64,000 nucleotides of DNA, taken from NCBI GenBank assembly GCA_030055615.1, contig JASFYN010000001.1, positions 327,267 through 391,266 on the forward strand, given 5' to 3'. Both the position numbers and the translations under genes were made by a program. Shown here one piece after another: positions 8,344-53,894 of the stretch. Every line of letters starts with the position of its first letter. The stretch's first letter is position 1. The notes under the pieces were generated by a model that saw only the letters and a program-made list of their open reading frames with translations, had not been told where the DNA came from and did not search any database. This stretch comes from Methanothermobacter sp. (GTDB taxonomy: Archaea > Methanobacteriota > Methanobacteria > Methanobacteriales > DSM-23052).

Positions 8344-11300
8344 GTGAACAAGATCAGAAAACAATTGATTTTATTGTCAGTTATGATCATTTTTGCATTG
8401 AGTTTATCTAGTACAGTGTCAGCGAATGACCTACAAATAGAACCTGAAAACCAAACAACTAATGGAATTGATCCTATTATCAAGGGGACAGTCATGGAAA
8501 ATAACACCCCAGCCGAAGGCGCTACAATAACAGTAAAAGATCCCACTACAAACATGACAATAATCACAGGAACCACCAATTCCACAGGAGAATACAAAAT
8601 AAATTTCATATCTAACCAGAACACCTTCAAGCTAGAAATTACTTACAAAAATTACAAACCATACACCACCATAGTGGAATGCAGTGGAACACCACCCACA
8701 GCAGAATTAAACCACACTTTCGTACCATCAAAAATGCTTAAACCAATTAAAATGCTAGTATTCGTCAGCGGATGCCCCACAGGAACCGTAGACCTAATGA
8801 TAAATGATGTGTACAAAAAACAACTATTACCCGAAGGCTACGACTTCGACCTTGAAATATCCAGCATGGAAACCATCAACATAAACTCAACAGAATGGCA
8901 AACACTCCTAGAAAAACTAAAAACCACAGACATATTCTTCTACCTCACAAGACCCAATTATCCACTAACAGGTATCACCTACGGGCCCAGTTACGATGTC
9001 GCTTCAGACTTTGAGACAATGGCCAAACAGATGAAACAAGGAAGCAAAATATTCCTATTAGGGGCTGTAAAACCATCATGCAATGTTACAGGTGTTGAAA
9101 TAGTGAACCTTCCGTTACAATATGGACAATTACTCAGTTTCCTTCTAAGTAAAGAAAACATCAAAAGAACCCTACTTGAAATATTAAGGGAAGCTAACGC
9201 CATATCTATCAGCCAAAATGAAACCAAACTACTACCACCACCAGGAGATTTCCTATACCATCCGGACTACCAAGGAATATTCCAAGAAAAAAATGATTAC
9301 ATAAGATGGTATAATGAAAGCGGCCACTTCAAAGAAGGCGCGCCCTGGATCGGAATTACAATATTCAATCGTCATTACATGTCTGGTAACTTGAAAATGT
9401 GGAATGAAATAATCAAAAAGCTAGAATCAAAAGGTTTCAATGTTATACCATATGTCATGGATCCTCCTGTCACTGGTGATACCACACAAGCTTCTAGAAA
9501 ATATTTCCTCTCAGAGCCGCGCATAGACCTACTGATAACATCCATACAATTCGGATATGGTGCAGACAATTATACAGTCTCCTTTTTCAAAGAATTGAAC
9601 GCACCTGTACTCAGCCCAACATATGTGTTCTTAATCGCAACACTGGACAAGTACTTGCAAGATAAAACAATCAGGGGTTTAAGCGGCCTTGAAATAGCAT
9701 TCCTAGCCATATACGAAGCCGGGGGTAGAATAGAACCAATACTTATAGGTGGAACCCAAATTTTAGGAAAAGACCCAGACACAAGCCTATCATTAAAAGA
9801 GTACTCCCCATACGAGCCAGGATTAAATCAACTAATCGACAGGGTATGCAAGTGGATAGAATTGAAATACAAACCCAACAACGAAAAAAGGGTCGCATTA
9901 ATATATTATGACAGCACACACGACGAGAAAATGCTCACAGGCTACGGTCTGAACGTACCGGCAAGTATCGCCAACGTACTCCAAGCACTACTAAAAGATG
10001 GATACAATCTAGGTAATCTAACAAAAGCTGATATCACAACTGAAAACATTCTTAGATTGATCAATGCACAAGGAAGAAACCTTATCAATTATACACAAGC
10101 CGACCTTCTAAACCTGATCCAAAAAGGCGTGCCAACAGTAACAAAAGAAGAATACCTCCAATGGTATTACAAGCTCCCAGAATCATTACGCAAACAAGTA
10201 GAAGCCACATGGGGCCCCCCACCAGGAAACATCATGGTCTACAAGGATAAAATAGTCCTCCCAGGCCTAATGCTTGGTAACATATTCCTTGGAGTGCAAC
10301 CAAGATGGGTATGGAATGGAACACTAGAAAACCTCTATAATAACACGTTACCGCCTACACATCAATACATAGCATTTTATCTCTGGCTTCAAAACAAATT
10401 CCAAGCAAACGCAATAGTTCATGTCGGAGGACAACACGGAACATTAGAACTATTACCCGGACACTTAAATGCAATGACAGCGGATGATTGGCCTAACACG
10501 CTAATCGGTAACATCCCAAATATACAACTTGTAAGAATGGATGATCCAGGACATGGGATCATAAATCCAGTGAAAAGAAGAGCATACGGGGTTGTTATAT
10601 CCCATTTAACACCCCCACTCGTAGAAGCTATAGGATATACTAAATACCGCGAATTAGACAACCTAATAAAACGTTACAATGACGCTAAATTAGCCGGTGA
10701 CAATGAAAGGATGGAACTGTTGAAATCCCAGACCCTGGCAGCGATTAAAAATGAAACAGGATTAGCTTCAAGACTAAAAATAACTGACGAAACAGACTTT
10801 GACACGGTAATCGCCCGACTCTCAGATTACATTGAATATATTGCCGAAACCTACACTACCAGTGGACTCCACACATTCGGGGCCTTACCAGATAATGAAA
10901 CCCTGGAAAAATTCATAGACACTATAGTATCATTCAATCCATCAAACAGGACAAGAGAACAAGTAAAGGACCTGTTAATCCAAAGCGTGGAAAATGAGAT
11001 CACAAACTTGTTAAGAGCCCTCAGGGGAGAATATATAGAACCTGTAGGTGTTAGCGATCCTGTATGTTCACTGGATGTTCTCCCAACAGGAAGAAACATG
11101 TATTCCCTTAATCCTTCAGGAATACCAGATATTGCTGCGATGCAAATGGGCAAAAAGGTCGTGGATAAAATACTGGAAATGTACAAGGAATCAAATGGAA
11201 AATATCCAGAGACCATTGCCATAGGCTGTGGAATTGACGTAATTTTAACAGGTGGCCAGAGTATAGCCGCGATTTTCAATTTAATCGGTGTCAGGCCAGT

Positions 11301-12582
11301 TTACGAGAGCGGGACATTGATTGGCACAGAGATAATACCATTGGAGGAACTTGGAAGGCCCAGGATTGATGTGATGATAGTCGATCCTCATAACATTCGA
11401 AGCATTTGTCCAAATACTTTCAAGATCCTTGACAATGCCATAAGACAAGTAGCATTGCTCAACGAATCCACAAATATGAATTATGTAAGAAAGCACTACC
11501 TTGCTATGCTCCCAGAGATTACAAGAGAATTAGTGGCACAAGGATTAAACCAAAAAGAAGCTTATGAAAGGGCCGAGAAACTTGCCAGGGCAAGGATATT
11601 TGGCCTTGCACCAGGTTCCGATCCTCATGGTGTGAGCGTAGATCGTATGTTATGGATAAGAACAGATTGGACAGAAAAAGAACTCAGTGAAACATACTTG
11701 AATTACTATTCATATGTATACACTAATGACATTTCAGGAATTTCAGCGCGAAAGTTACTTGAGAAGGTGCTGGGGACGGTTGACACTAGCATGATCATTT
11801 CAACACCTTACAGGACTACAGAAACGGGCGCATGCCTATATAACATAATGTCAAATATAATATTCGCGACAAAACAAGTTACAGGCAAGGATATAACAGG
11901 TTACGTGGTTAAGACCAATTACAAGGAACCTAGGATACTAACTTTACAAGAAAACATCTATGATGAAATAAGTTCCACATTACTCAACAGAGAATGGATA
12001 CAAAGAATGCTAGGAGAAGGGTATTCAGGTCAGGCGACTATTGCACTTCAGATAAGGAGTTTGTTTGTGAACAATGTATTTGCAAAGGTCACAAGCCCGG
12101 TGGTTTGGCGTCAAATTGCGAATGTGTACCTTGATCCGCAAGTTTTCGGCCAATTTGGCAGAGAACAGCAACAGATAATCGCTGGCCTATTTTATCAAGC
12201 GCATAATCGTGGTATGGTACAGTTTAGTGCTGGTGAACTCAAAACTTTGGAAAATGTCCTTGGTATAATCGGCGCTCCTACGCCTTCAATTCCAGGAGTT
12301 CCAACAACAAGTCCAGGAGATTCTGGCAATCAACCGGGGGTATCTCCTGGTTTTAGGGGTGTTGCACAAAATATAGGATCTTCAGGTTCAATGGGTGTAG
12401 GGATGGTTACAGGATCGGCTTCACAAGGTCCTGGTGCCTCTGGGGCCAAGTCCTATGAGGTGAGTAAAGTTAGTGGAGCTAGTGTAAACAGGGGATTACC
12501 AGTGTATGCTATGGCTGGTATTATTGTCCTTGTTGTGCTTGTTGGCGCTGGATACTTCTTGGCTAGTCGTGGGAAAATTTAA
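8344..12582 (+). CDS. Exported, membrane-anchored CobN/BchH-like cobaltochelatase homologue
   Basis: A 1412-residue giant. A signal peptide (about residues 4-27) is followed by a carboxypeptidase-regulatory-like beta domain (about 42-115, IKGTVMENNTPAEGATITV). A full CobN/magnesium-chelatase H region (about 130-1270) includes HVGGQHGTLELLPGHLNAM and RRAYGVVISHLTPPL. A Gly/Ser/Pro-rich linker and a C-terminal helix (about 1386-1407) with basic SRGKI end complete it. Cytoplasmic CobN inserts cobalt into hydrogenobyrinate diamide; this form should lie outside the membrane, so its substrate may be an external tetrapyrrole or a metal. No partner ATPase (CobS/T or ChlD/I type) is nearby. The GTG start lies inside GGGAGGTGA; an ATC at 8353, 5 bases after that site, gives a neater signal peptide. 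Confidence 0.8.
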   Translation: MNKIRKQLILLSVMIIFALSLSSTVSANDLQIEPENQTTNGIDPIIKGTVMENNTPAEGATITVKDPTTNMTIITGTTNSTGEYKINFISNQNTFKLEITYKNYKPYTTIVECSGTPPTAELNHTFVPSKMLKPIKMLVFVSGCPTGTVDLMINDVYKKQLLPEGYDFDLEISSMETININSTEWQTLLEKLKTTDIFFYLTRPNYPLTGITYGPSYDVASDFETMAKQMKQGSKIFLLGAVKPSCNVTGVEIVNLPLQYGQLLSFLLSKENIKRTLLEILREANAISISQNETKLLPPPGDFLYHPDYQGIFQEKNDYIRWYNESGHFKEGAPWIGITIFNRHYMSGNLKMWNEIIKKLESKGFNVIPYVMDPPVTGDTTQASRKYFLSEPRIDLLITSIQFGYGADNYTVSFFKELNAPVLSPTYVFLIATLDKYLQDKTIRGLSGLEIAFLAIYEAGGRIEPILIGGTQILGKDPDTSLSLKEYSPYEPGLNQLIDRVCKWIELKYKPNNEKRVALIYYDSTHDEKMLTGYGLNVPASIANVLQALLKDGYNLGNLTKADITTENILRLINAQGRNLINYTQADLLNLIQKGVPTVTKEEYLQWYYKLPESLRKQVEATWGPPPGNIMVYKDKIVLPGLMLGNIFLGVQPRWVWNGTLENLYNNTLPPTHQYIAFYLWLQNKFQANAIVHVGGQHGTLELLPGHLNAMTADDWPNTLIGNIPNIQLVRMDDPGHGIINPVKRRAYGVVISHLTPPLVEAIGYTKYRELDNLIKRYNDAKLAGDNERMELLKSQTLAAIKNETGLASRLKITDETDFDTVIARLSDYIEYIAETYTTSGLHTFGALPDNETLEKFIDTIVSFNPSNRTREQVKDLLIQSVENEITNLLRALRGEYIEPVGVSDPVCSLDVLPTGRNMYSLNPSGIPDIAAMQMGKKVVDKILEMYKESNGKYPETIAIGCGIDVILTGGQSIAAIFNLIGVRPVYESGTLIGTEIIPLEELGRPRIDVMIVDPHNIRSICPNTFKILDNAIRQVALLNESTNMNYVRKHYLAMLPEITRELVAQGLNQKEAYERAEKLARARIFGLAPGSDPHGVSVDRMLWIRTDWTEKELSETYLNYYSYVYTNDISGISARKLLEKVLGTVDTSMIISTPYRTTETGACLYNIMSNIIFATKQVTGKDITGYVVKTNYKEPRILTLQENIYDEISSTLLNREWIQRMLGEGYSGQATIALQIRSLFVNNVFAKVTSPVVWRQIANVYLDPQVFGQFGREQQQIIAGLFYQAHNRGMVQFSAGELKTLENVLGIIGAPTPSIPGVPTTSPGDSGNQPGVSPGFRGVAQNIGSSGSMGVGMVTGSASQGPGASGAKSYEVSKVSGASVNRGLPVYAMAGIIVLVVLVGAGYFLASRGKI

Positions 12583-13671: not shown

Positions 13672-14451
13672 ATGGGGGGTGAAAAAATAACTAGAAAACT
13701 AGCCCTCACAACCTCGGTATTACTGTTTTTTTCAGTTATTGCAACAGCTGCCGCGGCAGATGAAACACCTAATACTTTCATCAAGGGGACAGTAACTTAC
13801 TGTAACAGTACAGAACCTTTCCAGGGAGCTATAATAGACGTGAAATCTCCCACAGGATCGAGTATAGCATCAAACATAACAGGCAAAAATGGTGAATATA
13901 ACATTTCATTTTATTCAGAAGAGAATACCCTAATAATTTCTGCAATAGCACCAGGGCATATAATACCAACACAAACCATAAACTTAAATGAAACCCGATC
14001 TGCACAAGTAAACTTCCAGCTCGGAACACTCACACTAAAAAAAGGGTCCTGGGACACGATAGGCCTCGATCACAATAATGTAAACGCAGGCCCAAACCAG
14101 TACCTTGTACAAGTACGCGTTACCAATAATGCGCTCACAACAGCAACTAATGTAACAGCCAATTTCACATGGACAACAGACAACCACTACATAAACCTTG
14201 CACCAGGCGAAACCACAACAAAATATCTTGGAAACATACCACCAGGCGCAACTGTAGACGCATTCTACCTAATAGAAATAAAAAGAACAAGCGCCGCATA
14301 CCTAACTTCGAAGAATTACACCGTAACAGTCGCAGGTACAAATACAGGAACTCCAGACACGATAACAGGCACATTATATGTGGAAAAATTCGTATCACAA
14401 AGGCGTAATAATATAATCAGCATAACAGCCAGCAATAACACCCCACACTAG
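13672..14451 (+). CDS. N-terminal fragment of a DUF11 surface protein (frameshifted)
   Basis: A 259-residue fragment with a signal peptide (about residues 6-28), a carboxypeptidase-regulatory-like domain (about 36-110, FIKGTVTYCNSTEPFQGAII) and a beta-sandwich domain (about 125-235). The frame then ends at TAG (14449-14451) just as a new domain begins (ISITASNNTP). The next frame resumes with TLGDIIAV, which continues the sentence naturally, so a base is missing from the CCCC run at 14441-14444. The ATG at 13672 lies within GGGGGGTGA. An ATA at 13687, 4 bases after GGTGA, would give a tidier signal peptide. The N-terminal layout matches the CobN-like protein. Confidence 0.7.
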   Translation: MGGEKITRKLALTTSVLLFFSVIATAAAADETPNTFIKGTVTYCNSTEPFQGAIIDVKSPTGSSIASNITGKNGEYNISFYSEENTLIISAIAPGHIIPTQTINLNETRSAQVNFQLGTLTLKKGSWDTIGLDHNNVNAGPNQYLVQVRVTNNALTTATNVTANFTWTTDNHYINLAPGETTTKYLGNIPPGATVDAFYLIEIKRTSAAYLTSKNYTVTVAGTNTGTPDTITGTLYVEKFVSQRRNNIISITASNNTPH

Positions 14452-14471
14452 GAGACATAATAGCCGTAACA

Positions 14472-17399
14472 ATGGTATCAACTACAGCATCAACCTACGA
14501 CATTGTCAACCTACCACTCGCCTATAATCCAACAATACTCCAACCCTTAAATGTTACAACAACCTATGGGACAAACACAAACAACAACATACGCTTGGAC
14601 AATCCAGGGACAACAAACTTCGTCTCAGTATGGTACTTCAAAGTTATAGGAACAGGAACAACACACGTATATGGTACTATAACAGACCAAAGTGGTTCAA
14701 GCTTCCATTACAACGACGATTACGGTAAAAACATAACAATAACAGCACAAAAACTTGCAGACCTCGACATAATAAAAGTTGTAAACAATACAACACCTAA
14801 CCTCAACGAGCTAGTAAACTTCACCATAACAATAATTAACTACGGACCAGACAATGCAACAGGAGTCATCGTAGAAGATCTACTACCAAATGGATTACTT
14901 TTCCAGAGCGCAACAACATCCAAGGGAGTCTACAATCCAACCAGCGGTATTTGGAATGTAGGCACACTCAACTACCTTGAAACAGCAACACTAAACATCA
15001 TAGCACGCATCACCCAAGCAGGGATTATAATTAACAGAGCAAATATTACAAGCGACATCACAGACCCCAACCTCTTAAATAACAACGCAACAGCACCCCT
15101 AAATTCCCCACCAGCATCAGATTTGAGCATCGCAAAAACAGTGGACAAAGAAGAACCATACATTGGAGAAAACATACTCTACACAATAACAGTCTACAAT
15201 GCAGGCCCAGAAAACGCACCCACCGTAGTAGTTGAAGACCTATTACCACCTGGCCTGATACTCCAATTGGCAACACCATCCAAGGGAGTCTACAATCCAA
15301 ACAGCGGTATTTGGAATGTAGGCACACTCAACTACCTTGAAACAGCAACAATGACCATATTAGCAAAGGTAAATACAACAGGCCTCATAACCAACAAGGC
15401 AAATATAACATCAACCAATTATGATCCAAGCCCAGAAAACAATAATGCAACAATAGAAATTAATGCAAAACCCGTAGCAGACCTCCGAATAGTCAAAACA
15501 GTTACCAACTCCACTCCAAACCTTGGAGATACCGTAACATTCATAATTGCAGTCACAAATCTCGGCCCGAGCAATGCAACAGGAGTCACAGTCACTGACA
15601 TCCTCTCAGAAGGCCTCATATATCAAAGTCACCTTGCCTCACAAGGCACCTATGATAATTCAACCGGCATTTGGACTATAGGAACCCTCAACTACCCCGA
15701 GACAGCCTACCTAAATATCACAGTATTGGTTGACAAAGTAGGAGCCTCAAATAACACAGTATTCGTCCAAGGGAATGAATTCGACCCGGACATGACGAAC
15801 AATCGTGCATTAGCAGGATTAAACGCTCCAAAGGCATCAGATCTCAGAATCACTAAAACAGCAATTCCCGCAATAATCTACAATGGTTTAACATCCACAT
15901 ACAAAATAACAGTCTACAATGCAGGCCCAGATGATAACACAGGAGTTGTGGTCACAGACTTAATGCCAACTGGCCTCCAATTTTTAAGCTACACAGCATC
16001 TCATGGAACCTATGATAACAACACTAATACATGGAACATAGGTGACCTACAAAAATTCGAAACAGCAACATTAGATATCCTTGTAAGAGCAACCACTTCG
16101 GGCACGTTCTTCAACAGAGCCTTTGTTACGGGAGATGCACATGATCCATTTATAGGAGACAATAACGCAACCTTCACACTAATGACATTACCAGTAACAG
16201 ACATAAAAATTGAAAAAACAGCCAACGCAACAAAAGTAAACTACAATGATACAGTCAAATTCACAGTAACAGTCACAAACCTAGGACCAGACAATTCCAC
16301 TGGAGTCACACTTGTTGACCTATTACCAGCAGGCCTTGAATTAATATCAGCAACAACATCTCTTGGAATCTACACACCAATAAACGGTGCTGAATGGATA
16401 ATCGAAAGCTTACCCAAGGATGAAAGTGCAACCCTAGAGATCATAGCAAGAGTCACAATATCTAACACAACGATAACCAACCTAGCCAGTGTAACAAAAA
16501 CCAACGAATTTGATAATGACACAGAAAACAATTACGCCAATGTAACTATAGAGGTGTCACCTGCAGCAGACCTTGCGATAAGTAAGTCTGCCAACCAAAC
16601 AAGCGTAAATTACCTTGAAGCTGTTAAATTCACTATAACGGTTCAGAACCTTGGACCTGACACAGCAGAAAATGCAAGGGTAACTGATATTCTCCCAGCT
16701 AGTCTGGAGCTTGTGAGTGCAACACTTTCACAAGGAACATACACGAGTGGTGTCTGGACCATCGGAGATCTTGCAAATGGTGCCACCGCAACCCTTGAGA
16801 TCATAGCAAGGGCTGTAGCATCCAACATAAACATTGATAATGTTGCCAATGTTTCAAGCAACATATACGATCCAAACATGGCCAATAACAGGGCAAATGT
16901 CACCATTTCCGTGCCAACTGCAGCAGACCTTGCGATTAGCAAAGTTGCAGATGTAATAAAAGTGAGATATGGGGACATTGTTAGGTTCATTTTAACTGTC
17001 ATAAACCTTGGACCGGATACTGCAGTAAATGTTAGGGTCATGGATCGGCTGCCAGCAGGCTTACAATTTGTGAGTGCAAGCAGTCCAGATTACGATCCAA
17101 GGTCTGGGGTTTGGACTATTGGAAACTTAGCAAGAGGTGCGATTGCAACACTTAATATCGTGGCGAGAGTCGTGACATCCAACAGAAACATCACAAACAT
17201 GGCCATAGTAACAAGTGACACATATGATCCCAATCCAGACAATAACAAAGCCTTTGTAACCATAGAAGCGGCTAAAAGATTGATAAAACCGTCAAAACCG
17301 TGGGAAATCCCAATGCAGCCAACAGGAGCCTCATTACTATTAATGGTATTCGCAGTACTTTCAATTATCGCTGGATTCGCGGTTTCAAGAAAAGTATAA
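14472..17399 (+). CDS. Main part of a DUF11-repeat, membrane-anchored surface protein
   Basis: Residues 1-90 look like a cohesin-type beta-sandwich (YNPTILQPLNV). Seven DUF11-type repeats of about 118 residues follow (about 96-925), each opening with an ADLxIxKxV motif and containing GPDNxTGVxVxDLLPxGL. A Pro/Lys-rich stretch, IPMQPTGA, a hydrophobic helix and basic RKV end the protein. The tail resembles a sortase or anchoring signal. The frame is open from 14439, upstream of the ATG at 14472. Together with the preceding fragment it would encode one protein of about 1240 residues. It is likely a wall-spanning adhesin-like stalk. Confidence 0.8.
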   Translation: MVSTTASTYDIVNLPLAYNPTILQPLNVTTTYGTNTNNNIRLDNPGTTNFVSVWYFKVIGTGTTHVYGTITDQSGSSFHYNDDYGKNITITAQKLADLDIIKVVNNTTPNLNELVNFTITIINYGPDNATGVIVEDLLPNGLLFQSATTSKGVYNPTSGIWNVGTLNYLETATLNIIARITQAGIIINRANITSDITDPNLLNNNATAPLNSPPASDLSIAKTVDKEEPYIGENILYTITVYNAGPENAPTVVVEDLLPPGLILQLATPSKGVYNPNSGIWNVGTLNYLETATMTILAKVNTTGLITNKANITSTNYDPSPENNNATIEINAKPVADLRIVKTVTNSTPNLGDTVTFIIAVTNLGPSNATGVTVTDILSEGLIYQSHLASQGTYDNSTGIWTIGTLNYPETAYLNITVLVDKVGASNNTVFVQGNEFDPDMTNNRALAGLNAPKASDLRITKTAIPAIIYNGLTSTYKITVYNAGPDDNTGVVVTDLMPTGLQFLSYTASHGTYDNNTNTWNIGDLQKFETATLDILVRATTSGTFFNRAFVTGDAHDPFIGDNNATFTLMTLPVTDIKIEKTANATKVNYNDTVKFTVTVTNLGPDNSTGVTLVDLLPAGLELISATTSLGIYTPINGAEWIIESLPKDESATLEIIARVTISNTTITNLASVTKTNEFDNDTENNYANVTIEVSPAADLAISKSANQTSVNYLEAVKFTITVQNLGPDTAENARVTDILPASLELVSATLSQGTYTSGVWTIGDLANGATATLEIIARAVASNINIDNVANVSSNIYDPNMANNRANVTISVPTAADLAISKVADVIKVRYGDIVRFILTVINLGPDTAVNVRVMDRLPAGLQFVSASSPDYDPRSGVWTIGNLARGAIATLNIVARVVTSNRNITNMAIVTSDTYDPNPDNNKAFVTIEAAKRLIKPSKPWEIPMQPTGASLLLMVFAVLSIIAGFAVSRKV
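14757..17270 (+). repeat. Seven tandem DUF11 coding repeats
   Basis: Repeat period is about 350-360 bases. Repeats 1 and 2 share a 73-base stretch (14918-14990 and 15278-15350) that is identical except for one base, exactly 360 bases apart. Later repeats differ much more. This points to recent duplication or gene conversion between neighbours. Confidence 0.8.
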
Positions 17400-47282: not shown

Positions 47283-47648
47283 TCATTCTTCTTTTACATT
47301 TTCCACATAGATGAGTGGATATTTGAGTCTATCAATGTATTTCATCCGTATAATGGCCTTCACATTCTTGAACTTTGAGGTTATCTTAACGTCTAACATT
47401 CTCCCTTCTAGTGAAACATATCCAAACTCATTTTCAGCATCATCTAAATTTATTTCAACTTTAACATCCTCTATATTTGGTTGAAGTTTTATGGAATCCT
47501 CGATAGCTGTTTTAAGCGATTCTAGGGTATCCTGATTTACTGGGGTGCCGATGAATTGATGGAAAAGGGCACCCATACTTATAGCACCCTCAAATATAGC
47601 CCTCTCCCTATTAGAAAGGCACTTAAAATATTCATCTATACTACTCAT
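47283..47648 (-). CDS. mptD: 7,8-dihydroneopterin aldolase, archaeal MptD type
   Basis: A 121-residue protein of the archaeal DUF372/MptD family. It cleaves 7,8-dihydroneopterin to 6-hydroxymethyl-7,8-dihydropterin in tetrahydromethanopterin synthesis. The signature SNRERAIFEGAISMGALFHQFIGTPVN lies at residues 12-38. GGTGGG stands 7 bases before the ATG. Its start overlaps the sortase stop (ATGA), so it ends the asd-pssA-DUF515-surface protein-sortase run although its pathway is separate. Confidence 0.85.
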   Translation of the reverse strand: MSSIDEYFKCLSNRERAIFEGAISMGALFHQFIGTPVNQDTLESLKTAIEDSIKLQPNIEDVKVEINLDDAENEFGYVSLEGRMLDVKITSKFKNVKAIIRMKYIDRLKYPLIYVENVKEE

Positions 47649-48382
47649 AGATATCCCACCCAGAATCCCATTATATTATTTAATTCCCCGAGTTTCTCAG
47701 CTATAAACTCTGGGGGTGTTGGGAAAAGATAACCAAAAAAGAGAAAAAGGGTTAAAGCTGCTGTGGCCATGAATATAAATTTTCTATCTTCTTTCACGGG
47801 ATAAATTCTAGTAACTATGAGCCCCCCACCAAAGAAGGCGCCTATGATAAGAAGCGCATAATAGTTCTTAGGATTCTCAACCTTCAAATTTTTTTGGAAC
47901 GGTGAAATCTTGACAAGATCACATTCCACTATCAATCTTTCACTCATAGAACCAATAGGATGACAAGTTATAAGGAATAATTTATCCCCTTGATAGATTG
48001 ATATTAAATACGAAGCAGGAACGGTGAAGGACTTGTTCACAGTATACTCTGCCATCCCAATACCCGGCCAATTAAGATAAACTTTATCACCTTTCTTCAG
48101 TTTATCCAATTTAAAGAATGGGGATCCATACATTGTCCTATGACCAAAAAGGATGACAGTACCATTCCCAGGCTTAAATGATCTGGGCTCATGATAAACA
48201 CCATAAAAAACCGATTTATTATTAACCTCCTTTGTGAGGTTAATAGAGGGAATCTCCAAAATAGGGACATTAGGCTCTTTTTGTTTTATGTTGATCTCAG
48301 AAGCATAAAAACTCACCTCTATAAGGGCATAAAGGGATAGTATGAACATGCCAACTATTACCAAAACCGTTGATACTCTCAT
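47645..48382 (-). CDS. Sortase family transpeptidase
   Basis: A 245-residue membrane-anchored sortase. One N-terminal helix (about 5-25), the sortase barrel (about 38-160) and two C-terminal helices (about 172-192 and 205-222). The catalytic set is complete: His81 in LFGHRTMYGS, Cys140 in LFLITCHPIG and Arg149 in SERLIVECDL. Sortases cut a sorting signal and join the protein to an amine. The two C-terminal helices are unusual compared with Gram-positive class A enzymes. Neighbours include a likely substrate immediately upstream (48425-49375) and, further upstream, both archaetidylserine enzymes. GGTGGG precedes the ATG by 6 bases. Confidence 0.9.
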   Translation of the reverse strand: MRVSTVLVIVGMFILSLYALIEVSFYASEINIKQKEPNVPILEIPSINLTKEVNNKSVFYGVYHEPRSFKPGNGTVILFGHRTMYGSPFFKLDKLKKGDKVYLNWPGIGMAEYTVNKSFTVPASYLISIYQGDKLFLITCHPIGSMSERLIVECDLVKISPFQKNLKVENPKNYYALLIIGAFFGGGLIVTRIYPVKEDRKFIFMATAALTLFLFFGYLFPTPPEFIAEKLGELNNIMGFWVGYL

Positions 48383-48424
48383 TGTCTCCCACCAAAAAAA
48401 ATTGAAAATAAAAAGGAGGGGATT

Positions 48425-49375
48425 TTAACTTAACCTTGTATATGCTATGGCAGCCACCGTAACAAGAACACCTATCAACAACGGCCCCCATGGAGCCCCA
48501 GTCTCTCCACCAGGAACTGTAGTGGTCTTGTTACTAGGATACTCTCCGGCAGCAGCTCTCAAATTGGACTTAAGAGGCGTGCCATAATAACTGTAACCCT
48601 CACCGGCTCCTGCAGGCCACTCATAAGTGTATTCAAAATTCGAATAACTTCGACCTGGTAATGCAACATCCCATGCAGCAACATAAGCCCCTGGAACCGA
48701 TTCATAATCAATGAAGTCAACCTTTGGATAACTGTATGTAAGTTTTGAATTTGATGGTACGATAGGCGCCCTAACTATACCATAAACCCAATCATTATCA
48801 ATGTTTTTGAGGCTGAAACCAAATGTTCCAGTCCATTTCACGATCTTAAGATCAGGATTTAATGTTTCAAGCTCATTAGGCATAAACCATGAAGTGTAAA
48901 GTCCTGGTTCGCTCACAAGAGGCCAATAATATGTCGGATCCTCACCTGCGGGATAAAGATAACTAAGTTTGTCGCCGAATGGACCTGTTGCCTTTAATTC
49001 GAATGATACTGTCCTTGTTTGTCCAGGGTCTATTTCCCAGCCATAGTCCCCGCCAAGTTCTGGAAATCGTGATTTGGCCATTTTGACAGCTGGTGGATCG
49101 GTCCATTCAATCGTCCACTTTATTGTATCATTTATTGCAAGATGATCTTGGTATGCTTGGCCTATCTTGAAATAGTAGGGCCTGTTGGCTTTGTTTTTGA
49201 CTGTTACTTTTATGATCACCCAGAGACTATCCATTTGTAAGCTGGCTTTGGTATGGTTAACCCAGGTTTCTCCGCCAGTTTTATTTTGTGCAAAATCTGT
49301 TTCGGATGTGGCAAAGATCGAAAATAAAAAAATTGTAATTAATCCAACTAATAATATGTATCGTAGTCTATTCAT
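48425..49375 (-). CDS. Exported surface protein with sorting-signal-like tail
   Basis: About 316 residues. A signal peptide (MNRLRYILLVGLITIFLFSIFA) is followed by a beta-rich domain with many Trp, Tyr and Pro. The C-terminal end is tripartite: Thr-rich linker with VPGGETGA, a hydrophobic helix (PWGPLLIGVLVTVAAIAY) and basic TRLS. This is the plan of a sortase substrate; the sortase gene is next. The ATG at 49375 is used because GGGGGT lies 8 bases upstream and the hydrophobic signal begins there; an ATG 18 codons upstream adds a non-signal stretch. I do not recognise the main domain. Confidence 0.75.
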   Translation of the reverse strand: MNRLRYILLVGLITIFLFSIFATSETDFAQNKTGGETWVNHTKASLQMDSLWVIIKVTVKNKANRPYYFKIGQAYQDHLAINDTIKWTIEWTDPPAVKMAKSRFPELGGDYGWEIDPGQTRTVSFELKATGPFGDKLSYLYPAGEDPTYYWPLVSEPGLYTSWFMPNELETLNPDLKIVKWTGTFGFSLKNIDNDWVYGIVRAPIVPSNSKLTYSYPKVDFIDYESVPGAYVAAWDVALPGRSYSNFEYTYEWPAGAGEGYSYYGTPLKSNLRAAAGEYPSNKTTTVPGGETGAPWGPLLIGVLVTVAAIAYTRLS

Positions 49376-49403
49376 CCAAATTAACCCCCAAACCATTATT
49401 TTT

Positions 49404-50702
49404 TTATCCATAAATTTTATGTAATTCACGGATCATCCATTCCGGCGCGTTCTGTGTCGGGACAGTCAATATTATATTGTTCATGTTCTGTATCAAGAAT
49501 GGTACATCGTCCCTTGGCACCTCTAATATTACAAGGTAGGTGGCGTCAAGTTCTCCGAGGTTCGCGGCTCTTTCATAATCGGACAATCTTATACCATAAT
49601 TCTGTAGGATGGCCCTGATATCCTCTTCACTCAAACCACCTGCTGCAGCTGCCCTGAGGAGCTGTTCAACATCAGTAGCTGTTTTTTTCTCCATTGCCAT
49701 CCCGGAGGTCATTGTGTTCACGGAAATATTCTGTGACCTTAAAATACTAGCATCCACAGAACCACTATCCTTCGCCCTAAGAATTGCGAGTACCGTGGCC
49801 CCGCTTATCCTCGGTGTGGTCTCTTGGGGAGTTACGGTGGTGTTGTTACCAGTCTGGTTCACGTTGAGGTATACGTCCACCATGCTACCGACACCTATAA
49901 GTCCGCCGGCGGCTTGTAATCTTGATATCATAATGGGAACTGCAACAGTATCGGGGGTTTGGATCACCATATTAGCGAGTACTGTTGCATCTGCTTCGTT
50001 CACTATTTTCTGCGCATCAGAGGCTTTCATTATAATCCTCTTCGACTCTAACTGGCTCCCCATCTCTGTGACATTATACACTACCATGACTCTATTGAAT
50101 CTGTCCTTTTTGGTGCTGATTTCTTGGGTCTGGTATCTGCGCCAAGATTTGGTTGCGGGTCCGAGCACATCAACTGCTAGTACTTCCTCTGGTGTCTGTC
50201 CACTGTCTATCTCGGCAAGTATTGCCTGTTTCTGCGGGTCTGTTGCGAGCGGCCCCTTAAAGTATGCGTCTACTTCAGCTAGTTTCTGATCTTTAGCAGC
50301 TTGGAGCGTCTGCTGGTATGGTTGATATACGAGAAAATAGTATCCGCTCGCCACGATAATTATTATTATTATACCAAAAACTATGGCTCCTACGAGGGTG
50401 CGTTGATCTTCTTCCGGGATCTTTGGACGTATACCCCTACTAGGAGGCTTCCCGGGTGGTGTTAAACCAGGTTTTTTCTCAGAGGGCCTACTGGGAATTT
50501 TTAATCTAGGTTTTTCTTCTTTTTTACCTACTCTTAGGCGGGGTCTGGGCATGGGTCTTTTCTCTGGTTTTTTTGATGGTTCCTTCTTGGTGCCTCTAAG
50601 CTTGTCCACTAGACCTTTCACTTTTTTCTTGATATCATCGTCATCACCTTTTTTTCGAAGATCTGGAGGCCTATTATTATCGCCTTTTATTTTATCTATC
50701 AT
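49404..50702 (-). CDS. Membrane-anchored DUF515-like protein
   Basis: A 432-residue protein. Residues 1-95 are a Lys/Pro/Arg-rich cytoplasmic tail, one helix follows at about 102-122, then a large extracytoplasmic domain with two similar halves (each with a Val/Ile-rich strand and a Gln/Asp-rich helix) and a Met-Ile-Arg-Glu-Leu-His-Lys end. The plan resembles the methanobacterial DUF515 family; the name is tentative. A SAF-like or PilO-like role in the envelope is conceivable. The ATGA overlap with pssA and close spacing to the surface-protein gene tie it to the lipid/sortase locus. Confidence 0.6.
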   Translation of the reverse strand: MIDKIKGDNNRPPDLRKKGDDDDIKKKVKGLVDKLRGTKKEPSKKPEKRPMPRPRLRVGKKEEKPRLKIPSRPSEKKPGLTPPGKPPSRGIRPKIPEEDQRTLVGAIVFGIIIIIIVASGYYFLVYQPYQQTLQAAKDQKLAEVDAYFKGPLATDPQKQAILAEIDSGQTPEEVLAVDVLGPATKSWRRYQTQEISTKKDRFNRVMVVYNVTEMGSQLESKRIIMKASDAQKIVNEADATVLANMVIQTPDTVAVPIMISRLQAAGGLIGVGSMVDVYLNVNQTGNNTTVTPQETTPRISGATVLAILRAKDSGSVDASILRSQNISVNTMTSGMAMEKKTATDVEQLLRAAAAGGLSEEDIRAILQNYGIRLSDYERAANLGELDATYLVILEVPRDDVPFLIQNMNNIILTVPTQNAPEWMIRELHKIYG

Positions 50703-51382
50703 CTTGTACCCCTTTTTAAGCTTTTTCGGACGAATGGGATTAATATGTATGCTATTACCAATGCGAGGAGTGCTATGGCGACTATTTTGAGTTTTGCCCC
50801 TGTGAGTATGGTGAGTATCAGTAGTATAATTATTATTGTCCCGTTTTTCGCGGTGATTTTTGGATATTCTATGGAACTTATCATTATGAGTGATATCAGA
50901 GTTGCTATGATGAATATGAGATATTCATTGAAAAGACCGCTAAGGTAGAGGGAGGAAACAATGACAGCCATTACTGGTATTGGTAAGCCGATGAAGGCAT
51001 CCTTTTTGACATTTGCAATTATATTGAATCTTGAAAGCCTTAATATCCCACATGTCATTATTAGGAGACTAACTAATATATTAATGTATCGAAAACTTGT
51101 TGTGGAATATATGAAAAGTGCTGGGGCCAGACCAAATGAGATAATATCTGAAAGGGAGTCAACATTCCTCCCAAAACCTTCATCATCTTCTCTTTTTATT
51201 CTGCGAGCAACCCATCCGTCAATGGAATCAAAAATAACCGCAAGTAACATTAACTGACAAGCGAGGCCCATGCTCCCCTCTGATATCATTATTATTGATA
51301 GGAATCCAAGAGAAGCGTTTATAATCGAAAATAGGTCAGGAACCGCAATATAATATTGTATCTTATATTTTCTCTCTATCAT
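50699..51382 (-). CDS. pssA: Archaetidylserine synthase (CDP-alcohol phosphatidyltransferase)
   Basis: A 227-residue membrane enzyme that joins serine to CDP-archaeol. The CDP-alcohol transferase motif D-G-x2-A-R-x8-G-x3-D-x3-D is present in DSIDGWVARRIKREDDEGFG and the next residues (NVDSLSD). About six to eight membrane helices. It lies 3 bases after asd. Together they make archaetidylserine and archaetidylethanolamine. Confidence 0.9.
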   Translation of the reverse strand: MIERKYKIQYYIAVPDLFSIINASLGFLSIIMISEGSMGLACQLMLLAVIFDSIDGWVARRIKREDDEGFGRNVDSLSDIISFGLAPALFIYSTTSFRYINILVSLLIMTCGILRLSRFNIIANVKKDAFIGLPIPVMAVIVSSLYLSGLFNEYLIFIIATLISLIMISSIEYPKITAKNGTIIIILLILTILTGAKLKIVAIALLALVIAYILIPFVRKSLKRGTR

Positions 51383-51385
51383 CCG

Positions 51386-52060
51386 CTATAAACCTCTCTT
51401 TTTACTATGTGGGAATCGTGCTATTATTGTCTCCCCTGCCTTGGGCTTTGATCCGATATCAACTAAAATTTCGCAATCCTTGGGTATTATAAGATCCACC
51501 CGGGACCCGAAACGGATCATGCCTATCCTGGTTCCAATTTTCACTTTTTCACCCACATTTACATATTGTATTATCCTCCTAGCTATGAAACCTGCTATCT
51601 GGATGATTCCCACTCTACCATATTTACCTTCGATGACCATTAAATTTTTCTCATTTTCTGTTAAAATTTTACCCTTCGCTATTTTGAATTTTCCAGGATA
51701 ATAACTAGTATGGATGACCTTCCCGCTGATGGGGGCCCTGTTAACATGCACATCAAAGGGGGACATGAATGTGCTTACAAGGATGGCCTCATCATCATCT
51801 GTTATTTTATCTAATAATGGATAGGAGGAGTCTATCACTTCTATTCTGTCTATTTTCCCTGATAGTATCCTCCCATCAGCAGCTGCCACTATTATACCTT
51901 GTGAGTTTGGTGTTTTCCGCTGTGGGTCCCTGAAGAATTGTATTAAAAAGGCTAAAAATGATAGGATGAAGAACGTTATGATATAATATCCTAGGAGAAA
52001 GAGGAGGATGGAGCATGTTAAGAGTATCCCAAATTTTTTGGAGGATCCTTTCACAAGCAT
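51386..52060 (-). CDS. asd: Archaetidylserine decarboxylase proenzyme
   Basis: About 224 residues. A short Psd-type decarboxylase with an N-terminal membrane helix, PFDVHVNRAPISGKV in the core (catalytic Asp/His) and the self-cleavage site in RFGS, where the Ser becomes the pyruvoyl group. The ATG at 52060 is chosen because GGTGA lies 4 bases before it and the TATA box puts the transcript start near 52083, downstream of a TTG at 52093. First gene of a likely six-gene run through mptD. Confidence 0.9.
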   Translation of the reverse strand: MLVKGSSKKFGILLTCSILLFLLGYYIITFFILSFLAFLIQFFRDPQRKTPNSQGIIVAAADGRILSGKIDRIEVIDSSYPLLDKITDDDEAILVSTFMSPFDVHVNRAPISGKVIHTSYYPGKFKIAKGKILTENEKNLMVIEGKYGRVGIIQIAGFIARRIIQYVNVGEKVKIGTRIGMIRFGSRVDLIIPKDCEILVDIGSKPKAGETIIARFPHSKKRGL

Positions 52061-52101
52061 GGGATCACCAGTGGAATATATTCTTTTTTCCAAAAACTGA
52101 T

Positions 52102-52115
52102 AAAATATATATAAA
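52102..52115 (-). promoter_or_regulatory. TATA box of the asd-pssA-sortase run
   Basis: TTTATATATATTTT on the minus strand, centred about 48 bases before the asd ATG. Initiation 26 bases downstream leaves a leader of about 22 bases. Confidence 0.6.
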
Positions 52116-52180
52116 GTTTTTTAGATATTAATCTCTACATCCCCCGGATAAAATTTAAAGCTTATCTTATAACCTGTGAT

Positions 52181-52822
52181 GTGATGATGATGATAGAAAG
52201 CAAGATTAGGGTTCTTCGACAAGCAGCGCAAGTATCAAGCACCAGTTCAGGTAGGATATGGTGTGTTGCCGTTGGTAACGAGGATACTATTAACAGTGTA
52301 GCCTATGAGGCTATAGCATCTAGGGATAAAGTTAAAATACTCTTCAGGGAACATGTATCGGTTAAAGAAGCTTTTGTCAGGAAAAAATTTGATTTGATGA
52401 TGCTTTATGGTGACGAGTCCAAGATACGGGATCTATCAATCATATGTAAAGAAAACGGAGGGGCTTTTTTAAAAATAGCACCCCATTATGTTAAAAATGA
52501 GCCTCATCTCCTACTTCTCGTAGCACCGGAGAATTTGATCAAAAAATTTGTTGGAGAAGCAGAAAAGAAGAAAGCCAATTTCAAGTTGATCCTCCAGGAT
52601 AAGACAACAGGTTTTATAGAAGCAGATGTTTATTTAACTGCAAAATTGCCAAAGTTTATAAGGGAGATCATTGACCCATTATTTAAAGTTACAGATATTG
52701 TCTTAACAACATTATTGATATCAGTATCCAAAGAAGGAGAAGATGTTGAAAAGATAAAGGAAATTTCAGCCCACAATAATATATTTATTGTAGATTTCAA
52801 AGACATTTTAGAGGAGGATTGA
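52181..52822 (+). CDS. Unknown protein next to mreB
   Basis: A 213-residue soluble protein of alternating beta and alpha segments (a Rossmann-like pattern with VAVGNEDTIN near 30). The second half has DKTTGFIEADVYLTAKLPKFIREIIDPLF and an acidic end. No known motif. The frame opens with GTG followed by three ATGs, so the exact start is unclear. The stop abuts the mreB start (one base between), so it probably acts with MreB. No membrane segment. Confidence 0.6.
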   Translation: MMMMIESKIRVLRQAAQVSSTSSGRIWCVAVGNEDTINSVAYEAIASRDKVKILFREHVSVKEAFVRKKFDLMMLYGDESKIRDLSIICKENGGAFLKIAPHYVKNEPHLLLLVAPENLIKKFVGEAEKKKANFKLILQDKTTGFIEADVYLTAKLPKFIREIIDPLFKVTDIVLTTLLISVSKEGEDVEKIKEISAHNNIFIVDFKDILEED

Positions 52823-52823
52823 A

Positions 52824-53894
52824 ATGTTTTCATTTAGAAAAAAGGAAAAAGGAAAAAAAGAGGAAAGTAAGACAGTCACAGGAACCCTTGGTATAGATTT
52901 AGGGACGCTAAATACTGTGATAGCTAAGCCATCAGGGGATAAATTTGATATTTATAAAATACCTTCAGTAGTCGCCGTGAAAAAGGATGACCCATCTTAT
53001 GTCCTTGCGGTGGGTGAAGAAGCGAAAAAGATGCTTGGCAGGACACCTGAGGATATAGTGGCTGTCAGACCACTTAGGAAGGGTGTTGTGGAGAGCGTGG
53101 CACAAGCAGAGGCGCTTATAATCCATGCAATAGAAATGGGTGCAGGTGACATATCAGAGATCGAAAGGATAGTCATAGGCATTCCAGGTAACGCATCAGA
53201 AGTTGAAAGGAATGCAGTTGAAGAAATTGGCAAGAGAGCTGGCGTAAAATACATTCTAGTTATAAGTGAGGGTCTTGCAGCGGCAATAGGCGCAGGATTG
53301 CCAATAGCTGAAGCCTCAGGTACTATGGTTATCGACATCGGCGCAGGATCAAGCGACATCGTCGTCATATCACTCGGGGGGATAACAGACATTGAAACAG
53401 TACGAGTCGGCGGCGATGACATAGACGAAAACATAGTAGAACTAGTTAAAGAAAAACATAATGTAGAGATAGGATTACACGAGGCCGAAAGGGCCAAAAT
53501 CGAAGTTGGCATGGTCCATTCAAAAACAGAATTTGAGAACGAAAAAACCACGGTAATAGGAAAATGTATGGAGACGAACAAACCAAAAGAGGTTGAAATA
53601 GATTCAAAATTGGTTGCTGATGCAGCAGAACCCGTTATCACAAAAGTTATAGATGCAATTTCAAAGGTTCTTGAAAGATTATCACCAGAACTCATATCAG
53701 GAGTATACAAAAGGACAATATTGGTTGGGGGCACATCCCTCCTAAGAGGGCTTAAAGAAAGAATCTACGAGGAGGTAGGCATCCCAGCCGAGGTATCAGA
53801 AGACCCCATGACCGTAGTGGCGAAAGGAACAGCCATCGTCGCAGCCGAACCAAGAGCACTAGAACCGGAAGTAAGACTAAAAGCCATGAAATAA
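52824..53894 (+). CDS. mreB: MreB-like actin homologue
   Basis: A 356-residue actin-fold ATPase that forms filaments guiding wall growth in rod-shaped cells. Phosphate-1 loop GIDLGTLNTV near residue 23, phosphate-2 DIGAGSSDIVV near 172, adenosine motif LVGGTSLLRGLKERI near 303. A Lys/Glu-rich N-terminal tail (residues 1-16) may bind the membrane or partners. Among archaea MreB is largely confined to pseudomurein methanogens. GAGG lies upstream of the ATG. It is followed by rnhB and exbB/exbD-like genes. Confidence 0.92.
   Translation: MFSFRKKEKGKKEESKTVTGTLGIDLGTLNTVIAKPSGDKFDIYKIPSVVAVKKDDPSYVLAVGEEAKKMLGRTPEDIVAVRPLRKGVVESVAQAEALIIHAIEMGAGDISEIERIVIGIPGNASEVERNAVEEIGKRAGVKYILVISEGLAAAIGAGLPIAEASGTMVIDIGAGSSDIVVISLGGITDIETVRVGGDDIDENIVELVKEKHNVEIGLHEAERAKIEVGMVHSKTEFENEKTTVIGKCMETNKPKEVEIDSKLVADAAEPVITKVIDAISKVLERLSPELISGVYKRTILVGGTSLLRGLKERIYEEVGIPAEVSEDPMTVVAKGTAIVAAEPRALEPEVRLKAMK

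Follow-up and report, generated by a model that had tools for sequence, protein, structure and literature searches.

A C-terminal tail with a T-G-x-P core as a probable order-wide sortase sorting signal of Methanobacteriales

A family of C-terminal tails in Methanobacteriales, each composed of a short core around a Thr-Gly pair, a hydrophobic helix and a basic end, very probably serves as a tag that is cut by sortases in order to anchor exported surface proteins. The tails are best explained as an order-wide sorting signal whose general enzyme is most likely Sortase 1, encoded in the window, i.e. the whole 64,000-nucleotide stretch of Methanothermobacter sp. DNA that was analysed, and we regard this combined reading as probable. 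That the tails are a sortase signal is strongly supported by their C-terminal position, by the Pro-rich or variable linkers that precede them, by the Sec signals of the proteins that carry them, by their distribution, by their loss in a sortase-less genus and by the failure to find an archaeosortase in this genome.

Two such tails were found in the window. The gene directly upstream of the sortase gene (47645..48382, minus strand) encodes an exported surface protein, termed sub1 (48425..49429, minus strand), that has a signal sequence and a putative sorting signal and orthologues in 19 of 120 genomes. Comparison of sub1 with Pfam and NCBIfam profiles gave no hit. The core of its tail, VPGGETGA (48494..48517, minus strand; full tail 48428-48517), starts exactly 30 residues before the stop, and from there the C-terminus reads VPGGETGAPWGPLLIGVLVTVAAIAYTRLS, followed by the stop codon. 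The best 17-residue Kyte-Doolittle mean in this tail is 2.04. Across sub1 orthologues (n=16) the T-G pair is invariant (16/16) and the helix is also kept, while the linker preceding the motif differs in both length and sequence. The sub1 tail fits xTGxP alone and not an extended [IV]P-M-Q form. The pilin motif of Gram-positive bacteria (YPK) was considered for sub1 and rejected, as it is not conserved among the orthologues.

The second tail belongs to a DUF11-repeat surface protein whose gene (13672..17399, plus strand) is split by a frameshift near 14440-14452. The open reading frame at 14472-17399 is the 3' part of this gene and lacks a signal peptide, which is carried instead by the 5' part. 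An intact 1720-residue homologue, a single reading frame in a sister genome, aligns across the break, first to 13672-14451 and then, in another frame, to the region 14472-17399; the frameshift is either an assembly error or real. The gene layout comprises an N-terminal signal sequence, a carboxypeptidase-regulatory-like domain, seven DUF11 repeats and the predicted sorting signal. The core of the latter, IPMQPTGA (17307..17330, plus strand; full tail 17307-17396), again starts exactly 30 residues before the stop, the C-terminus from this point being IPMQPTGASLLLMVFAVLSIIAGFAVSRKV and then stop, with a best 17-residue Kyte-Doolittle mean of 2.85. The translated tails thus bear out the initial annotation, which had placed both motifs at these positions, with the helix and the basic end following directly.

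The whole genome (1,488,638 bases) was then searched for tails by pattern and by profile. The pattern [I/V/M]PxxxTGA gave 8 matches compared to 3 for the reversed pattern. Four of the eight are C-terminal (L002, L004, L005, L008), and all four lie exactly 30 residues from the stop with a hydrophobic helix and then a basic end in each. Of the rest, L003 and L006 are internal to proteins of cytoplasmic appearance, and L001 and L007 fall outside convincing genes. The profile added two variants from the same genome, VPMQPTGV in a 118-residue open frame and VAMQETGI in a protein that is VWA-like by eye. Sec-type N-terminal signal sequences, judged by eye, are present in 5/5 readable tail proteins, the sixth N-terminus being masked. 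As all C-terminal motif carriers are exported where readable, the earlier expectation that a proteome search would return exported proteins only came true for the C-terminal matches. A chance resemblance of two C-termini would be favoured by the shortness of the motif and by the 3 genome matches that even the reversed pattern finds, but its probability is negligible, as it is excluded by the fact that all four C-terminal matches lie at exactly -30, together with the profile result for the order.

This profile result was obtained by searching 120 Methanobacteriales genomes with successive tail profiles (A2, A3 and A4). Profile A4 matches tails in 94/120 genomes, and a relative from outside the order (G120), which the data suggest is Methanothermus, is also tail-positive. 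Among 100 distinct tails, TG is present in 98, a count to which the search method itself contributes, and the distance of the Thr from the end is 22-28 residues. Counted from this Thr, Met occupies position -3 in 71/100 tails, position -2 is mostly Lys or Gln, Gly follows at +1 and Pro stands at +3 in 97/100. The order-wide core is M-[K/Q/H]-x-T-G-x-P, of which only T-G-x-P is near-universal. The [IV]P prefix and final Ala, parts of the pattern first noted, are specific to a lineage: [IV]P-M-Q-x-T-G-A-P is the extended form of the core in the lineage of this genome. A search of plasmids for the tail gave no match. No description of the motif was found in the open-access literature (subscription journals lay outside the scope), and it seems that this tail motif of pseudomurein-walled methanogens has gone unnoticed so far.

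The tails resemble the LPxTG signals that are read by Gram-positive sortases (class A to F) in that a T-G motif, a hydrophobic helix and a basic end are combined with a signal peptide, a sortase in the same genome and, in many members, a Pro-rich linker ahead of the motif. They differ in that the methanogen core is M-[K/Q]-x-T-G-x-P, mostly lacking Pro at the second place, in the conserved Pro two residues after the Gly and in the pseudomurein wall of the host. A tail with MPKTG in G002 (L172) bridges to LPxTG. When 34 tails were compared with curated signal models, none scored above the cut-off, LPXTG included; the nearest was LPXTG_anchor, which made weak contact with 10/34 tails, and the strict LPxTG models TIGR01167 and PF00746 produced no more than weak matches (best E 0.0022 and 0.051). 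Leahy 2010 (PMC2812497) reported two sortases and no LPxTG proteins for M. thermautotrophicus, one sortase and two LPxTG proteins for M. smithii, and one of each for M. ruminantium. The genomes taken as these species contain the tails PMQPTGAP (G016), MAKTGNP and LAKTGIP (G008), and PMKNTGHP (G024), respectively.

Archaeosortase signals (PGF-, PEF- and VPXXXP-CTERM) are also tripartite and C-terminal on archaeal surface proteins, and this shared layout would fit a tail that is read by another enzyme, be it an archaeosortase or a rhomboid-type protease. The statement that Methanobacteriati use archaeosortases (PMC12617251) points in the same direction. The motif and the enzyme family differ, however, and a search of this genome with the exosortase/archaeosortase profile PF09721 gave no match, compared to 3/120 genomes in the order; an archaeosortase was on this account rejected as the enzyme in this genome. 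Models of archaeosortase tails made weak contact with just 1 or 2 of the 34 tails. We consider a reader of this kind very unlikely.

The distribution of the tails largely follows that of sortases, with exceptions in both directions. A PF04203 sortase is present in 96/120 genomes and 18/19 genera, and tails were found in 87/96 sortase-positive compared to 7/24 sortase-negative genomes (Fisher p=3e-9, with kinship ignored and one clade dominating). Nine sortase-positive genomes are without a tail at E<=0.01. The seven genomes with tails in which no sortase was found even at E<=10 are G051, G053, G068, G086, G101, G114 and G118; G053 is 99% complete, several of the other six are incomplete, and some of the seven may reflect assembly gaps. 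The only genus without a sortase (g5, 17 genomes) is inferred to be Methanosphaera, as the table in PMC2812497 lists a fitting genome without sortase, and 16/17 of its genomes have no tails. Since this genus is one clade, it represents essentially one loss event. In its exception, G051, the tail has decayed: it reads VTPAAGNPI, with AAGNP in place of the core and the Thr lost. Two long surface proteins of this genome (G051:C134; L238, L186, L198) end in VTPAAGNP, a helix and RKK, as if the Thr had drifted.

These observations also bear on a reading of the tails as plain membrane anchors at the C-terminus, in which TGxP starts the helix and no enzyme takes part. A single C-terminal membrane helix is frequent in archaeal surface proteins, and the DUF11 protein of the window resembles in domain order MTCT_1020, the aggregation protein of Methanothermobacter CaT2, which consists of a signal, a carboxypeptidase-like domain, repeats, DUF11 and a C-terminal helix and which its authors called membrane-anchored (Sumikawa 2019, PMC6759345). 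The window itself holds an example of such an anchor: a large exported protein labelled CobN-like in the initial annotation (8344..12582, plus strand) ends in a helix and a basic tail with no TG motif, just as had been described, and is the comparison case for plain membrane anchoring. A plain anchor would not need a conserved TG, a fixed spacing and M-[K/Q] in unrelated proteins, and disappearance of the tails upon sortase loss would not be expected of it. As TGxP is conserved and is lost with the sortase, plain anchoring is disfavoured, and we judge it unlikely.

The sorting-signal reading thus leads to the question of the enzyme. Sortase 1 (245 aa) matches PF04203 with E=4e-19 (68.9 bits, cut-off 26.6) over a sortase domain at residues 38-157, with membrane helices N-terminal and C-terminal to the domain, and is found order-wide. 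His81, Cys140 and Arg149 are invariant in an alignment of ten Sortase 1 sequences. An AlphaFold2 model built from two sequences had a mean pLDDT of 44. Its nearest solved relatives, based on profile against structure sequences, are class C (pilus) sortases (2xwg, 4d7w, 8t28), with which it shares the flanking helices; the class names of these and the class E entries below are in part what we take them to be. Unlike class C enzymes, it falls far below the NCBIfam class cut-off of 160 bits (class C 42.3, class E 35.8), and the adjacent candidate substrate lacks a conserved pilin motif.

Sortase 1 is part of a conserved gene run (window positions 47283-53894) that contains two lipid-synthesis-like genes (archaetidylserine type, by eye), a DUF515 / RcpC-CpaB-like membrane protein (49404..50702, minus strand), sub1, Sortase 1 and a dihydroneopterin aldolase-like gene (47283..47648, minus strand). 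At the loci examined across the order, no more than one gene separates the CpaB-like gene from Sortase 1. The aldolase-like gene overlaps the end of the sortase gene and is a conserved neighbour that is probably outside the mechanism. In Lupo 2025 (PMC11915815), CpaB-like and 'Sortase E' groups turn up jointly in a set of pseudomurein-archaeal genes and are linked to pilus or surface proteins, with no substrate named in the passages on them; the 'Sortase E' group appears to be Sortase 1. The run is divergent from a pair of genes that resembles, by eye, the pair of coiled-coil/MreB-like genes that the same work describes as part of 'cluster C'.

This genome encodes a second, short sortase of 195 residues outside the window (G000:C2:184107-184691, equal to L077:7105-7692; PF04203 60.6 bits). 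Class E sortases (5go5, 5go6, 5cuw) are among its best-scoring solved relatives in the comparison of profile against structure sequences, but, like Sortase 1, it scores far below all NCBIfam class cut-offs (class E 53.3 vs 160 bits) and, unlike class E, misses the canonical Arg after the Cys. The His and Cys are kept, while the Arg position is Ala in TCYPPGxxxAAWIT; an invariant DIR[WY]DY some 23 residues before the Cys might supply an Arg. Two genomes (G098:C89, L228; G097:C171, L229) have a version of about 320 residues with an extra N-terminal stretch in which an ER dipeptide after the Cys is kept. A broken remnant with in-frame stops is found in G058:C243 (7936-8398, inside L226), and the intact gene is absent from G058.

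It is possible, though clearly less likely than the assignment to Sortase 1, that the short sortase handles the [IV]PMQxTGAP tails and sub1, with Sortase 1 handling general MKxTGxP tails or another task. Pro at -4 is present in 39/48 tails from short-sortase genomes compared to 8/52 elsewhere, and the narrow [IV]P-type profile A2 finds at least 3 tails in 18/18 short-sortase genomes and in one other (G049). Sub1 is likewise present in 17/18 carriers and in two further genomes (G049, G100), and in G120 a sub1 homologue (L237:7-285) is found some 5 kb away from the short sortase (L237:5195-5812) and not beside Sortase 1. Against this, the carriers group together in the Sortase 1 tree, so that the link between the short sortase and [IV]P amounts to one or few events and may be due to descent, and the short sortase lacks the Arg at its usual place. 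An apparent tracking of the short sortase alone by the tails was traced to the narrow profile and discarded, as the wider A3 and A4 found tails in genomes with only Sortase 1. In fact, Sortase 1 is favoured as the general enzyme because such genomes also carry tails, with up to 37 M[K/Q]xTGxP tails in G056. The initial proposal that the tail is the recognition signal of the sortase at 47645-48382 accordingly stands firmly as far as a sortase signal is concerned, but its pattern has to be shifted from [IV]PxxxTGA to M-[K/Q]-x-T-G-x-P, and the enzyme is probable and, given the second sortase in the genome, not settled.

By analogy with bacterial sortase biochemistry, the newly made exported protein would carry a signal peptide at its N-terminus and the core, hydrophobic helix and basic end at its C-terminus, and the helix would retain it in the membrane until cleavage. 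The sortase, whichever of the two acts, would cut between Thr and Gly and form a thioester intermediate, and an amine would receive the new C-terminus, the most plausible site of this acceptor being the pseudomurein wall, although this is a guess. A more elaborate version, which we hold to be doubtful, has the two sortases sharing labour as in Gram-positive pilus systems. Here Sortase 1 would be the class C-like member, the short, class E-like enzyme would read an extended [IV]PMQxTGAP signal, and DUF11 adhesins or sub1 would be polymerised or joined covalently to pseudomurein.

Sortases of pseudomurein methanogens have long been listed with few or no substrates, and the motif names candidates in most genomes of the order. 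These candidate substrates make covalent anchoring to pseudomurein in archaea directly testable, and the motif would re-annotate adhesin-like proteins of gut and rumen methanogens that are now termed membrane-bound.
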